Shown one piece after another: positions 9,305 through 14,654 of a DNA stretch of 64,000 nucleotides (its first letter is position 1; every line of letters begins with the position of its first letter). The position numbers were made by a program, and so were the translations under genes. Below the pieces are notes generated by a model. It was not told where the DNA came from, made no database searches, and saw nothing but the letters and a program-made list of their open reading frames with translations. The stretch is from Methyloferula stellata AR4 (GTDB lineage Bacteria > Pseudomonadota > Alphaproteobacteria > Rhizobiales > Beijerinckiaceae), in NCBI RefSeq assembly GCF_000385335.1, contig NZ_ARWA01000001.1:574081-638080 (forward strand). Reading direction: 5' to 3'.

Positions 9305-9898
9305 TTAGCTTTGTATCCCTTTATAAAACCCCTCGACCTTTTCCATCAGCCAGCCGAAAGCCTCAAGCTCCTCGGGGCCGGCCGTCTTTTCGACGGCGAT
9401 TCTGATATAGGCGATTTCGGCCTCCACCTTATCGCGCGGCAGCATGGACAGACGGCTTGCAAGAATGGCGAGCTCAACCACCGCCGCCTTGGCCCGGTTC
9501 ATGCCCTCGAAGGGCTGATGCTGCGCAAGGTGCAAAACCTTGCAATGGAACCGGGGCCTTTGGTCATGCTCTTCGACATGCAGAACGGCGAGCCGTGCAT
9601 GCGCCAGGGCCGCCGCCAAACGCGACACCGGAAAATCGCCCGCTTGTATCAGCGGCCACGTGCTGCGCCCTGTGAGGCAACCCGCGAAGATGCGCACATC
9701 GTCGGTGTAATTGGCGGTCGCGAAAGGCACGGCGCGCAGATTGTCGAGCGTTTTCGACGGATGGAAAGGCGCGATGATCCAGCCCTCGCCATCTTGGATC
9801 AACCCAAGCGGCGCGAGATGTGACTGACCTGACGCATCGACCGTGGCAACGATCGTTTCGCGGATCATCGGCACGCAAATATCCTCATGGTTTTTCAC
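9305..9898 (-). CDS. DUF447 family protein (methanopterin-associated, flavin-binding split-barrel-like)
   Basis: A 197-residue protein of the DUF447 family, found in archaea and in bacteria that use tetrahydromethanopterin. The conserved start MIRETIVATVDASGQSHLAP, with a following GWIIAPFHPSKTLDNL, is typical of a flavoreductase-like split barrel. The frame opens with GTG 9898, which overlaps the preceding gene by 14 bases; the ATG at 9868 just before IRETIV is an alternative start. Position at the 3' end of the C1-cofactor operon suggests a role in methanopterin or methanofuran metabolism, but no reaction is established. Confidence 0.85.
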   Translation of the reverse strand: MKNHEDICVPMIRETIVATVDASGQSHLAPLGLIQDGEGWIIAPFHPSKTLDNLRAVPFATANYTDDVRIFAGCLTGRSTWPLIQAGDFPVSRLAAALAHARLAVLHVEEHDQRPRFHCKVLHLAQHQPFEGMNRAKAAVVELAILASRLSMLPRDKVEAEIAYIRIAVEKTAGPEELEAFGWLMEKVEGFYKGIQS

Positions 9899-11318
9899 CT
9901 TTCACGTCCGATGTTTTTGCGCGCAACGTATGGCCCGCCTCGCGCAGCTGCGAGAGATCCTCCTCCGCGGCCTTGTCCGTGGCGACGCCCCAATCGAGCG
10001 GTTCATCCTGCACGAATCTTTTGCCGAGCGCGAAGGCAATCTCGGCTTTCGTCAGTTCCGCGGCGAGATAAAATGCATGCGCGCCGTCTTTTTCGACGCC
10101 GAGGCGCGGATAGAGCTCCATCGCATGTGTCGCGACATGATGGCCGTCGCGATTGTAGATGTGGATGCCGTCTTCCGCGACCTCGATGCGGAAATTCGCA
10201 TCGCGCACCTCGGCGGCGCGCTCGGCGATCTCGGCGGGCATCGCGACGAAAGGCTTCTTGGCGTGCAGTTGCAAGAGCCCGGCGTCATAGCCTTTGGGCA
10301 AAGCCTGGTCTTCGCGCGCGGCGAACATGAGGCGGCGCGCCGCATCATGCTCTTCGATCGTACGGCGCGTATGCGGACTGACTTGCACGATGAGAAGATC
10401 GCGGATCGCAAGTTCCGAACATATGCCGAGCAGCATGGCGGTGACGCCGCCTGAATCGGCTTCCGTCAATTCGGTGAGATTGCCAGTGCCCATCATGATC
10501 TCGGCTACAGGGAAACGCCTCCGCGCTTCCCTGTAGCCTGCAAGCGACTCCATGAATCCGAAATGGATCGGATCGAGGATCGGATCGATCATGAAGGAAA
10601 GCTGTTTGGCCTGCGCCATCTCCGTCACGCGCCAGAGCGAGTCGAGATCGCGATGCACCTTGGGGATCAGCACGGGCGTGACCTTGTAGCGCTCGGCGAT
10701 CCACAAAGTCTCTTCGGTCAAACTTAGAAGAAAATCGGCGCCCGCTTTGGCGCCGCGCTCCAATTCTTCGGTTTGCGCCGAATCGACGCTGACCAGAAAG
10801 CCTTCCGCCTTGAGCGCGCGTACGGCATCTTCAAGAAGCGGGAAGGGCGTATCGGGCAGGCAGCCGAGATCGATGACATTGGCGCCCGCCTGCCGCATGG
10901 CTGAGGCGCGGCGCACGATCGCCTCGACCGTTTGCGCCGAAGCATCGACGATTTCGCTGAAAATGCGCATGTCGTAGCGCGAAAGATCGCGCATGGTTCC
11001 GCCGCGTCCGAGAAAAGCCGGCAGATCGACGAGCTCGTCCGGACCACGCACGACCGGCACGCCGAGTTCGGCGGACAGCGCGTCGAGATCGGCGCGGCAG
11101 CGTCCGGGCACCATGATCTTATCGGCCTCGACGGGGCGCGGCAGGCGGCGCAAAATAATGGAGCCGGTCATCAAGGCCGCGACCTGCACGCCGACATCGA
11201 AGACCGTCCAGACGAAAGGCGTCTCGCCGAGACCGTGAAGCACTTTTTCAAGGCGCGGGCGGGCGAGATGCCCGGTCAGGAACAGGATGCGTTCAGCCAC
11301 GGGTTCGATCTCAGCCAT
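9885..11318 (-). CDS. Dihydropteroate synthase-like protein (DUF6513; tetrahydromethanopterin biosynthesis)
   Basis: A 477-residue cytosolic protein. The first ~120 residues form an N-terminal DUF6513-type domain starting ILFLTGHLARPRLEKVL. A TIM-barrel pterin-binding region follows, with AGANVIDLG, the FLVSVDSAQ strand and the FMIDPILDPIHFGF segment, recalling DHPS. The C-terminal ~130 residues are a further conserved extension. Homologs are encoded in methylotroph H4MPT gene islands and in methanogens, and are believed to make or couple the pterin-arylamine precursor; the exact reaction is inference. It overlaps the DUF447 gene downstream and lies 26 bases after the kinase-like gene. Confidence 0.88.
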   Translation of the reverse strand: MAEIEPVAERILFLTGHLARPRLEKVLHGLGETPFVWTVFDVGVQVAALMTGSIILRRLPRPVEADKIMVPGRCRADLDALSAELGVPVVRGPDELVDLPAFLGRGGTMRDLSRYDMRIFSEIVDASAQTVEAIVRRASAMRQAGANVIDLGCLPDTPFPLLEDAVRALKAEGFLVSVDSAQTEELERGAKAGADFLLSLTEETLWIAERYKVTPVLIPKVHRDLDSLWRVTEMAQAKQLSFMIDPILDPIHFGFMESLAGYREARRRFPVAEIMMGTGNLTELTEADSGGVTAMLLGICSELAIRDLLIVQVSPHTRRTIEEHDAARRLMFAAREDQALPKGYDAGLLQLHAKKPFVAMPAEIAERAAEVRDANFRIEVAEDGIHIYNRDGHHVATHAMELYPRLGVEKDGAHAFYLAAELTKAEIAFALGKRFVQDEPLDWGVATDKAAEEDLSQLREAGHTLRAKTSDVKGEKP

Positions 11319-11344: not shown

Positions 11345-11986
11345 TCAAGACAGAGCGACGCGCGTTCCAGGTACGCCGCCCGCGGCGAGAAGCGCGGCAG
11401 CCCCTTCTAAGGCCGAAGGTCCGGCAATGAAAACCTCGGCCCCGCTGGTGCCGGCAAAGCCTGCAAACAGGCGATCGACCACGCGCGAGGCCGAAAGATC
11501 GGCGAGCGTAGGCGCGGCGCCTGAAGGCAGATCGGTGCTTTTCACCAAAAGAAGCTTCGTCGCGCCGAGCTCATGCGCGAGCCACGCCGCGAGCGTGTCA
11601 GATGTCGCATCCCAGGAGGGCGGCACCGGCGTCGTCGCGGCAAGCATATGCGAAGGCGCCCAGATGGGGATTTGATTGAGGCGCCAGGCCCGGCGGATGG
11701 CCGCGGGCGTCGCGGCCATGACGAAGCGCGGCGCCAGGGCGGCAAGCACCAGCCCATATTGTTCCATGGCAAGAAGCGCCATGTGATGGGCGGCGAGATC
11801 ATCAAAGCCAATGTCCATTTGCGCCGCCCGCACGGCATCGGCAAAGGGACCGCCGCCCGGAACGACGATGGGCTGGCCAGGAATTTTATCGAGCGCCTGC
11901 AGCCATCGCGGCAGGAGCGCGGACGCAGCCAGACTGCCGCCGATCTTGATGACGAAGGGCCGCTGGCGCGTGATGGGCGCTGGCAA
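11345..11986 (-). CDS. Amino-acid-kinase-fold enzyme, MfnE-like (methanofuran biosynthesis)
   Basis: A 213-residue protein with the amino acid kinase N-terminal motif VIKIGGSLAAS followed by VVPGGGPFADAV, a late AWLAHELGATKLLLVKSTD and a glycine-rich C-terminus. In methanogens the MfnE kinase phosphorylates the aminomethylfuran phosphate intermediate of methanofuran synthesis; in methylotrophs the homologous gene lies near mfnB as here. I place the start at TTG 11986, one base after the stop of the upstream gene, because it begins just before the first beta strand. A longer frame (to 12061) overlaps the upstream gene and has no kinase-like sequence. Substrate assignment is inference from context. 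Confidence 0.8.
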   Translation of the reverse strand: MPAPITRQRPFVIKIGGSLAASALLPRWLQALDKIPGQPIVVPGGGPFADAVRAAQMDIGFDDLAAHHMALLAMEQYGLVLAALAPRFVMAATPAAIRRAWRLNQIPIWAPSHMLAATTPVPPSWDATSDTLAAWLAHELGATKLLLVKSTDLPSGAAPTLADLSASRVVDRLFAGFAGTSGAEVFIAGPSALEGAAALLAAGGVPGTRVALS

Positions 11987-11987
11987 T

Positions 11988-13151
11988 TTAGCCGCTCGAA
12001 AAGCCGGGGAAGATCTGATGCACGCGCGCCGCAGCAGCGGCGCGCTCGCGATGGATTTCAATGCCGACGCAGCCCTCGATCACATCGAGCTTTTCGACCC
12101 GCACTCTGATCGTGACGACGGAACGGTGCGCCAGCAGCGCCGCCGCGATCTGTTCCGCCAAGGTCTCGACCAGGGCGACATGACCGCGGCTCAGGATCAG
12201 TTTGATCGCATCGACGATGAGATCATAGGAGAAGACATCGCGCATATCCTCGGCTTGCGTATTTGTGCGGCGGATATCGACATCGATGTTGAAACGGACG
12301 CGCTGCGTGTGGCCGCGTTCGAAATCATAGGCCCCGATGGCGACCGGCATCACGAGGTCATGAACGAAGACGCGGTCGGTCTCGCCATCCTTTTCGCTTG
12401 GCGCGGCATAGCCTCGCGCCGCGAGCAGACGCCAATCGACTTTCGGCCCCATGCCGAATTCATTCGCCGCCATTTCGCGCGGAATGAGATCACGGACGAT
12501 CTTCACCGCTTCCGGATCGATCCCGGCAGTACGCCTGCCGGCCTGACAGAGCGCGCCCCTGAAGCCCAAAAAGCCCGGTTGCAGCAGGAGCAAACGCGCG
12601 ATGTCCGGCGTTTCGAGCGCTCCCGCGAGACCGCTGAGCAGCGAGGCTTCGCGGCAGGCTTCGACGAACCGGGCGAGATCCGCAATGCCGAGATGCGACA
12701 TCAGCCGGCCCGCGCCCTTTTCAGCCGTATCGAGCATGGCCGCCTTGAAACCATGCTGCGCGAGAAGACTGAGCGCCGTAAAATCGAGCGGGCCTTGATC
12801 GGCGAAGAAGGCCGCGACGAGATGGACCTTGGCCGCCAAGGGCGCCAGAGCCTCGATGCAAGCCGCGAAGGCTTCGCTCGGCAGCAAGCCGATCTTCACG
12901 TAATCGACGCCGGTTTCCGCCATGCGGCTCGCGGCCTCGAAAAGCGCGGCAGGCTGCATGGGAATGTCGCCGACAACCGCGCTGACGAGCCTGCGGCCAG
13001 CGATCATCTTGACGGTCTCGCTTACCACTGCGACCGGCAAAGCCCCGAAAGCGCCCTGCGACGGATCTTTCAGATCGATGAGATCGGCGCCGCCGGCAAT
13101 AGCGATTTCGGCCTCGGCCGGTCCGGTGACGCTGGCGAGCATGAGCGTCAT
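11988..13151 (-). CDS. mfnB: Fusion of (5-formylfuran-3-yl)methyl phosphate synthase (MfnB) and dihydroneopterin aldolase-like domain
   Basis: A 387-residue two-domain protein. Residues 1 to about 245 match MfnB, which makes the furan phosphate of methanofuran from two glyceraldehyde-3-phosphates through Schiff-base lysines; candidates are Lys28 (LIDLKDP), Lys86 (YVKIGL) and Lys145 (MLDTAEK). Residues from about 265 to the end resemble dihydroneopterin aldolase (FolB): PVAIGAYDFERGHTQRVRFN, the catalytic-type glutamate in VETLAEQIA and the lysine in VRVEKLDV. The FolB step yields the hydroxymethylpterin used for folate or H4MPT. The ATG overlaps the stop of the upstream DUF2380 gene (ATGA, 13148-13151). 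One polypeptide thus joins the two C1-cofactor pathways. Confidence 0.85.
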   Translation of the reverse strand: MTLMLASVTGPAEAEIAIAGGADLIDLKDPSQGAFGALPVAVVSETVKMIAGRRLVSAVVGDIPMQPAALFEAASRMAETGVDYVKIGLLPSEAFAACIEALAPLAAKVHLVAAFFADQGPLDFTALSLLAQHGFKAAMLDTAEKGAGRLMSHLGIADLARFVEACREASLLSGLAGALETPDIARLLLLQPGFLGFRGALCQAGRRTAGIDPEAVKIVRDLIPREMAANEFGMGPKVDWRLLAARGYAAPSEKDGETDRVFVHDLVMPVAIGAYDFERGHTQRVRFNIDVDIRRTNTQAEDMRDVFSYDLIVDAIKLILSRGHVALVETLAEQIAAALLAHRSVVTIRVRVEKLDVIEGCVGIEIHRERAAAAARVHQIFPGFSSG

Positions 13152-13988: not shown

Positions 13989-14654
13989 ATGGATCGATCG
14001 CTGCTCGCTGGCGGCCTTGCGGTTTTGACGCTTGCCTTTGCCATCCAACCGGGGCTCGCGCAAGGGGCCGGCAAAAAAGTCAATAGCGACTGGCCCTGCC
14101 AGCAGATCCTCGTCCGGACTATTTCCGTGCCCGCGGTCTGGACCGGCCCCGGCATTGAAGGCATCGACTGGCAGAGCGATTCCAAACTCGTCGATCTCAC
14201 GGACAAGCTCGCAGCCCGCCGCCTGCCGCTCGAACAAGCGCAGCAGCAGATTACGGATTTCGCCAAAACGCTCGGTGCCGACAAGACGAGCAAGCTGACC
14301 GCTTTATTCGCAGGGCTTTATCATAAGCTGAATAATGAGCGGACCCAGATCATCGACGGGCTCGACCGCTTCGGCCAAAAGCAGAAGGACCTCGGCGACA
14401 GGCTGCGCGAGGAAACCGCGGCCTTGCATGAGGCGCAGGATAAAGCCGGCGGCGCGCCCCTTCCCGACCTCAAGGACAAGAGCGGGCCTCAGACGGCACC
14501 CGGGCCGGAAGCCTCCATTTTGGAAAAACTGCAATGGGATCTGCGGATTTTCCAGGACCGGCATAATGCCGTGACCTTTGCCTGCGAGTCGCCTGTTCTG
14601 ATCGAACAGAGGCTGTTCGCGCTGGCGCGCACGATTCAGGAAAATCTGAATTAG
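13989..14654 (+). CDS. Exported protein of unknown function in the methanol oxidation cluster
   Basis: A 221-residue protein with a signal peptide ending near LAQ-GA (about residue 25). The mature part has a conserved-looking start with KVNSDWPCQQILVRTI and a following VPAVWTGPG, then long amphipathic helices and a second cysteine in FACESPV near residue 197. The two cysteines could form a disulfide. It is likely periplasmic. The gene is on the plus strand, between two minus-strand blocks, beside genes for XoxF function. I recognise no domain; an accessory role in periplasmic methanol oxidation is inference from position only. Confidence 0.8.
   Translation: MDRSLLAGGLAVLTLAFAIQPGLAQGAGKKVNSDWPCQQILVRTISVPAVWTGPGIEGIDWQSDSKLVDLTDKLAARRLPLEQAQQQITDFAKTLGADKTSKLTALFAGLYHKLNNERTQIIDGLDRFGQKQKDLGDRLREETAALHEAQDKAGGAPLPDLKDKSGPQTAPGPEASILEKLQWDLRIFQDRHNAVTFACESPVLIEQRLFALARTIQENLN

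Follow-up and report, generated by a model that had tools for sequence, protein, structure and literature searches.

The window analysed here is a stretch of 64,000 nucleotides from Methyloferula stellata AR4 (contig NZ_ARWA01000001.1, positions 574,081 to 638,080 of the forward strand). On its minus strand, at 11988..13151, it carries a fused gene, mfnB-folB, which encodes 387 aa (ATG at 13151, stop codon at 11988-11990). The preliminary description had proposed a single polypeptide joining MfnB to a FolB-like aldolase, and the frame was found exactly there, with both domains above their curated Pfam cut-offs. The MfnB (4-HFC-P synthase) half, aa 1 to about 218, occupies 12498..13151 (-) as judged from the PF04476 match (E 2.1e-65), the HMM boundaries and the alignment with MJ1099. 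It is followed by an in-frame, stop-free linker of about 40 aa at 12378..12497 (-), the gap between the two HMM matches of the single ORF, and by the FolB (dihydroneopterin aldolase) half, aa 259 to about 370, at 12042..12377 (-), which was assigned from PF02152 (E 1.9e-19), PDB chains and residues.

The two halves have alike G+C contents at codon positions 1 and 3 (0.71/0.76 in the MfnB half, 0.70/0.76 in the FolB half) and unlike ones at position 2 (0.48 and 0.34). A full-length relative, 91% identical (L032), was found in an independent MAG, showing that the fusion is not a sequencing join. An artefact or chance overlap was also rejected on the strength of the two Pfam matches and of an architecture kept throughout a 13-row MfnB clade, which includes the window's row and L032.

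In the N-terminal half, the 4HFCP_synth profile (PF04476) matched aa 4-218 over profile positions 1-226 of 228 with 221.1 bits (cut-off 22.4). The NCBIfam equivalog cut-off was missed (best model PRK02227.1-5, 281.6 vs 297 bits), so that the name MfnB rests on Pfam, residues and neighbourhood instead. M. jannaschii MJ1099 (PDB 4rc1) aligned with residues 4-222 of the query (E 2.1e-24). Lys28, Lys86 and Lys145, the lysine motifs singled out in the preliminary description, all aligned with MJ1099 lysines. Counted from the 4rc1 alignment with a 7-residue tag assumed, they correspond to MJ Lys27, Lys85 and Lys155, of which we take Lys27 and Lys85 to be active-site lysines of MfnB. An AlphaFold2 model built from 15 rows, read for the TIM-barrel fold of MfnB, gave pLDDT 74-98 by block for aa 1-220, with strands alternating with helices. 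An excerpt of PMC11365854 terms Lys155 of the MJ enzyme catalytic and names glyceraldehyde-3-phosphate as the substrate of MfnB.

In the C-terminal half, the FolB profile (PF02152) matched aa 261-366 with 70.7 bits (cut-off 31.8) over positions 1-112 of 113. This half missed the NCBIfam folB equivalog TIGR00525 (52.6 vs 72.15), passed the broader NCBIfam folB_dom model (59.8 vs 45.05) and matched the bacterial dihydroneopterin aldolase PDB chains 3v9o, 3o1k, 2o90 and 3r2e. Glu278, Tyr309, Glu329 and Lys354, presumably the catalytic set of dihydroneopterin aldolases, are all present. The same set was found in 15 of 16 fused rows; the sixteenth has a gap at the Lys and is taken to be L033, where the FolB end consists of unknown bases. 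In the AlphaFold2 model, read here for the T-fold of FolB, the order is strand-strand-helix-helix-strand at low confidence (pLDDT blocks 26-50), and the low confidence begins at aa 227, linker included. The dihydroneopterin aldolase that had been placed in this half is thus supported by a complete-looking Pfam match and by the four residues, conserved Glu and Lys among them, with a fold modelled at low confidence. FolB converts 7,8-dihydroneopterin into 6-hydroxymethyl-7,8-dihydropterin and glycolaldehyde, according to the portion of PMC7993393 consulted.

The fused gene belongs to an island of minus-strand genes. Directly downstream lies an MfnE-like gene of the amino-acid-kinase family (11345..12061; Pfam AA_kinase, E 1.7e-13), which matched NCBIfam MfnE under its cut-off (E 2.3e-19). 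Its listed TTG start overlaps the fusion, and we consider a TTG just past the stop codon of the fusion to be the likelier start. Next come a gene of the DUF6513/dihydropteroate-synthase-like (orf20) type at 9885..11318 (Pfam DUF6513, E 3.8e-28; TIGR00284, E 9.5e-55, under its cut-off), probably a tetrahydromethanopterin biosynthesis gene, and a DUF447 (orf19-type) gene at 9305..9898 (Pfam DUF447_N/C). DUF447 also neighbours the fusion in L210 and L211. Upstream of the fusion we found a DUF3280 gene and, slightly farther away, CXXCW, MoxJ-like and PQQ methanol/ethanol dehydrogenase genes. A 221-aa plus-strand ORF (window 13989-14654), situated between the island and these dehydrogenase genes, matched nothing in Pfam or NCBIfam. 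In M. extorquens, Orf22, Orf21 and Orf9 are described as homologues of MfnB, MfnE and MfnF (excerpt of PMC8141765).

We surveyed 297 genomes of the order, and 66 had MfnB. According to ORF and HMM analysis, MfnB was fused to FolB in 12 of these, in 16 folB was the next gene, in 12 folP-folB-folK lay just upstream of mfnB, and in 26 the genes were apart. The fused count includes G042, whose MfnB is split between contigs and whose C-terminal MfnB piece shares one frame with FolB. A phylum-wide sample of 398 genomes, many of them shared with the order sample, contained 20 with MfnB and added the fusions of G591 and G649. A pattern-based scan of named genomes returned 54 loci, of which two, L032 and L033, have the FolB fusion; the source genomes are a Hyphomicrobiales MAG (91% identity) and Acidicaldus organivorans DX-1. 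Among plasmids, 49 records matched, and the 12 that cover at least 80% of the query come from Phyllobacterium, Rhizobium and Sinorhizobium. Whether such a fusion is common had been left aside in the preliminary description; it is a genuine, repeatedly observed variation on two known families. The two domains do lie on separate genes in 54 of the 66 MfnB genomes, as had been considered possible for relatives, but the genes adjoin in 28 of those 54.

The plasmid copies deserve separate mention. In Phyllobacterium zundukense (L210) the fusion belongs to a plasmid module that also holds mfnE, flavoprotein, DUF6513, DUF447, fae, mch, mtdB, beta-RFAP synthase and fhc genes and lies close to a PQQ methanol dehydrogenase. 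Of 19 proteins taken from this stretch, 18 (the fusion included) were matched in the 33-kb surroundings of the fusion in Rhizobium sp. CC1099 (L211); the missing one is the PQQ methanol dehydrogenase. These rhizobia thus bear a tetrahydromethanopterin/methylofuran module on large plasmids. The fused protein is annotated on plasmids for one half, as MfnB in some records and as FolB in another. An MfnE-type kinase is annotated by NCBI as 'dihydroneopterin aldolase' on two Phyllobacterium plasmids (L210:17194-17832 and L214:4167-4802), where the adjoining fusion bears an MfnB name only, and the L210 protein matched only AA_kinase in Pfam.

Other extensions of MfnB were seen. An open 621-aa frame in G209 (L005:328-2190, minus strand) spans MfnB, FolB and the MfnE-like kinase with no intervening stop and is a possible three-enzyme fusion. 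Methylobacter-type gammaproteobacterial methanotrophs have MfnB with a C-terminal CheY-like receiver domain (L034-L040, L044, L047, L054 and L060). Pfam was run on three of these 11 loci (L035, L040 and L054), with PF00072 at E 5e-23 in L040 (L040:6001-7041), and the others looked alike by eye. These ORFs of 333-406 aa had been candidates for FolB fusions, as tblastn reached residue 273, and were rejected when sensitive HMM and Pfam searches gave the receiver domain. Such a fusion might place a methylofuran enzyme under two-component control.

The trees bear on how the fusion arose. In the FolB tree (98 rows, 118 alignment columns, so that deep forks are weak), all 32 fused or next-gene FolB rows clustered in a single 45-row clade (95/90), separate from the canonical folK-linked FolBs. 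The other 13 rows of this clade come from MfnB-less genomes of families f29 and f31, which leaves the order of events, linkage first and MfnB loss later, unproven. Of the 15 fused rows of the MfnB tree, 13 formed one clade (97/96) and the other two stood among next-gene rows of family f32. The frame simply runs through in one of these f32 fusions (G284); in the other (G074) an indel relative to G191 merges the frames, and an assembly error in G074 is possible. Together with the f32 frames, the MfnB tree suggests that an old fusion was followed by one or two recent events.

We then compared the state of the MfnB lysines with the presence of FTR, the methylofuran-dependent formyltransferase (PF02741). 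The lysines could be scored in 66 genomes (64 of the order sample plus G591 and G649); G042 and G085, the latter with an MfnB match in two pieces, were left unscored, and both have FTR. Lys28, Lys86 and Lys145 were all kept in 58 genomes and not in eight. Every one of the 58 has FTR and none of the eight does (58/0/0/8; Fisher p 1.7e-10, uncorrected for kinship). The losses amount to four changes on the MfnB tree, and five of the eight genomes belong to one genus. This match of MfnB lysine loss with FTR absence is a new point, and the lysine state offers a simple way to recognise from a genome that methylofuran use has been lost. Among MfnB-less genomes tested for FTR, 11 of 12 lacked it and G167 had a weak match (4.6e-25), which speaks against a fully clean picture. 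The tested set includes eight of the 13 MfnB-less genomes of the linked clade, seven without FTR and G167 with its weak match.

Two of the FTR-less genomes carry the fusion. Lys28 is replaced by Thr in G255, and in G211 Lys28 is replaced by Glu and Lys86 by Arg. Both keep all four FolB residues and have no other FolB. No mfnE, DUF6513 or DUF447 gene was found in the stretches read around these two fusions, whereas mfnE stands beside 12 of the 13 other fused loci; in the thirteenth, L032, the contig ends just past the fusion. An intact FolB beside a decayed MfnB argues that FolB works independently of MfnB catalysis.

Decayed MfnB halves were also observed elsewhere. Plasmids of Phyllobacterium root-nodule strains carry a second MfnB-FolB paralogue between tdh and fae (L212:5692-6804 and L213:5884-6984), with a shortened MfnB half that keeps Lys86 and lacks the Lys28 and Lys145 motifs, and with a FolB half that has all four residues. 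Phyllobacterium T1293 holds both this decayed paralogue and, on another plasmid, a full-length fusion. In five FTR-less genomes of family f11 (L117-L121, from G243, G292, G180, G223 and G260), the gene directly after folP-folB-folK encodes an MfnB-like protein that lacks all three lysines and is likely a pseudoenzyme kept beside the folate genes.

What, then, is the role of the fused FolB in M. stellata? The genome (G000), a single contig of 4.24 Mb, contains one PF04476 match, one PF02152 match, which is the fused one, and one FolK, 0.7 Mb away. There, folP (L124:6737-7549) is directly followed by folK (from 7587), with no folB between them. That a fused FolB is the only one of its genome, with folP-folK elsewhere and without folB, is a second new point. 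The same folP-folK order without folB was found in five of nine folK stretches from genomes with an MfnB-linked FolB, this genome included, and the remaining four showed folK with no folP found in the stretch. Elsewhere, 26 genomes showed the order folP-folB-folK, and ten f35 genomes showed folB-folK in a stretch lacking folP. A displaced folB also occurs without MfnB linkage, since in G077 and four f50 genomes folB is unlinked and the stretch read contains no folK.

Across the order, an MfnB-linked FolB (fused or next gene) was the only FolB above cut-off in 27 of 28 genomes. G001 has a second match under cut-off, and the exception, G209, has a canonical FolB in folP-folB-folK plus the fused copy. 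In G591 and G649, too, the fused FolB is the sole FolB of the genome. A second route to the pterin, by MptD or PTPS, was looked for and rejected: MptD (PF04038) was absent from all 36 genomes searched, G000 included (in the control, three of 14 genomes matched, all archaea), and the single PTPS of the genome bears a Cys motif that we read as QueD-type, so no known bypass was seen. A FolB that is the only one of its genome likely has a duty in folate synthesis beyond the methylotrophy pterin, and the fused FolB half thus probably supplies folate as well as tetrahydromethanopterin.

Alternatively, the fused FolB may serve tetrahydromethanopterin only, the folate pterin coming from another, unrecognised aldolase, a bypass or uptake. 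The gene does sit within a tetrahydromethanopterin/methylofuran island, the fusion travels with a complete module on plasmids, and G209 holds both a canonical folP-folB-folK and a fused copy. Moreover, no PF02152 match was found in 41 of the 297 genomes of the order (27 of 254 of high quality), among them G040, G065 and G080, each a single contig of about 5 Mb. Some genomes thus get by with no recognisable FolB, and folate supply without it seems to exist, which weakens the sole-copy argument. However, M. stellata has folP and folK, yet no other FolB, no MptD and a QueD-like PTPS, and G255 and G211 still have an intact, sole FolB half in spite of a decayed MfnB and the lack of FTR. A methanopterin-only FolB lineage is further weakened by the FolBs of the 13 MfnB-less f29/f31 genomes, which fall inside the linked clade. 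We therefore regard exclusive service to tetrahydromethanopterin as unlikely.

The preliminary description had suggested that the fusion balances the two cofactors, be it by fixed stoichiometry, shared assembly or channelling. The reactions of MfnB and FolB share no substrate or product, which makes channelling unlikely. Linkage of mfnB and folB in three arrangements (fused, next gene, or folP-folB-folK upstream) suggests that coexpression has value, but operon structure alone can produce such linkage, and the genes are separate in 54 of the 66 MfnB genomes and wholly apart in 26. In addition, FolB can persist when the MfnB part of its chain decays, with MfnB residues lost and FolB intact in two genomes and two plasmid paralogues. 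Balancing is thus not supported, and we consider it quite improbable. That the FolB half has another activity of its superfamily (epimerase or triphosphate epimerase) or is structural would agree with its score under the NCBIfam folB equivalog cut-off and with the separation of linked from folK-linked FolBs, but is hardly credible given that the folB model outscores the triphosphate-epimerase model (52.6 vs 22.5 bits, both below cut-off), that the 15 fused rows in which all four catalytic residues are readable keep every one of them, and that this is the sole FolB-family match of a genome with folP and folK.

We consider it probable that mfnB-folB encodes a working two-enzyme protein whose sole FolB feeds both folate and dephospho-tetrahydromethanopterin, and that it arose by takeover followed by fusion, MfnB decaying when methylotrophy is lost. 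The N-terminal half would condense glyceraldehyde-3-phosphate into the furan precursor of methylofuran, and the C-terminal half would cleave 7,8-dihydroneopterin to 6-hydroxymethyl-7,8-dihydropterin and glycolaldehyde. Folate would receive the pterin by way of the distant folP-folK pair, and dephospho-tetrahydromethanopterin by way of the DUF6513 gene, which lies two genes downstream. We read the architecture, the residues, the single copy, the place in the operon, the trees and the pattern of decay directly from the sequences, and from these we infer both activities, the service of both cofactors and the direction of the history. The proposal in the preliminary description that one polypeptide makes early precursors of methanofuran and of a pterin cofactor therefore stands as to architecture and residues, and the activities are predicted.

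As for the history, a divergent folB may first have been the gene after mfnB in a methylofuran/tetrahydromethanopterin island. This linked folB would have taken over from the housekeeping folB, which was then lost from between folP and folK. A first fusion of mfnB with folB would have followed, and a more recent one in family f32. The simplest route would combine coexpression within an operon, a takeover of the folate step and a fusion by run-through. Fusion would tie the folate step to a methylotrophy gene, and on loss of methylotrophy the FolB half would be kept while the MfnB half decays in place. It is conceivable, if doubtful, that the folate half preserves the methylotrophy half once they are fused: the dead MfnB barrel would stay on at the N-terminus because FolB has come to depend on it for folding, assembly or regulation, and would be a pseudoenzyme derived from a cofactor enzyme.

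In the literature searched, we found no paper naming the aldolase for the pterin of bacterial tetrahydromethanopterin. The architecture points to a specific answer in this alphaproteobacterial clade: a single FolB, either joined to MfnB or encoded just after it, would serve folate and tetrahydromethanopterin alike. If the fused gene were plasmid-borne and the sole FolB of a strain, a methylotrophy plasmid might conceivably become indispensable. Our observations also call for caution with automatic annotation, which names the fused protein for one half only and misnames the neighbouring kinase on two Phyllobacterium plasmids.

No description of an MfnB–FolB fusion was found in a literature search confined to open-licence papers, and comparison is with the separate families and related arrangements. 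The gene island resembles the orf19-orf20-orf21-orf22 type of Methylosinus trichosporium OB3b, which differs in having afpA between orf20 and orf21 (excerpt of PMC3615186); no afpA-like flavoprotein was found within the window. MJ1099 aligns with the N-terminal half over its length, lysines included, but is a stand-alone chain (242 residues in 4rc1), whereas here the chain runs on into FolB, and the usual MfnB of the order likewise lacks the fusion. The Methylobacter-type protein (L040 and others) also has an extra domain C-terminal to MfnB, but this is a receiver (PF00072) and not FolB. The fused FolB shares with its family (PF02152) the full-length domain match and the four catalytic residues. 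It differs from folK-linked FolBs in belonging to another lineage and in lying outside a folP-folB-folK operon, C-terminal to MfnB. The eukaryotic folB-folK-folP fusions likewise hold FolB inside a multi-enzyme chain; as described in the part of PMC4224340 consulted, they join consecutive folate steps, whereas in M. stellata the partner of FolB belongs to the pathway of another cofactor.
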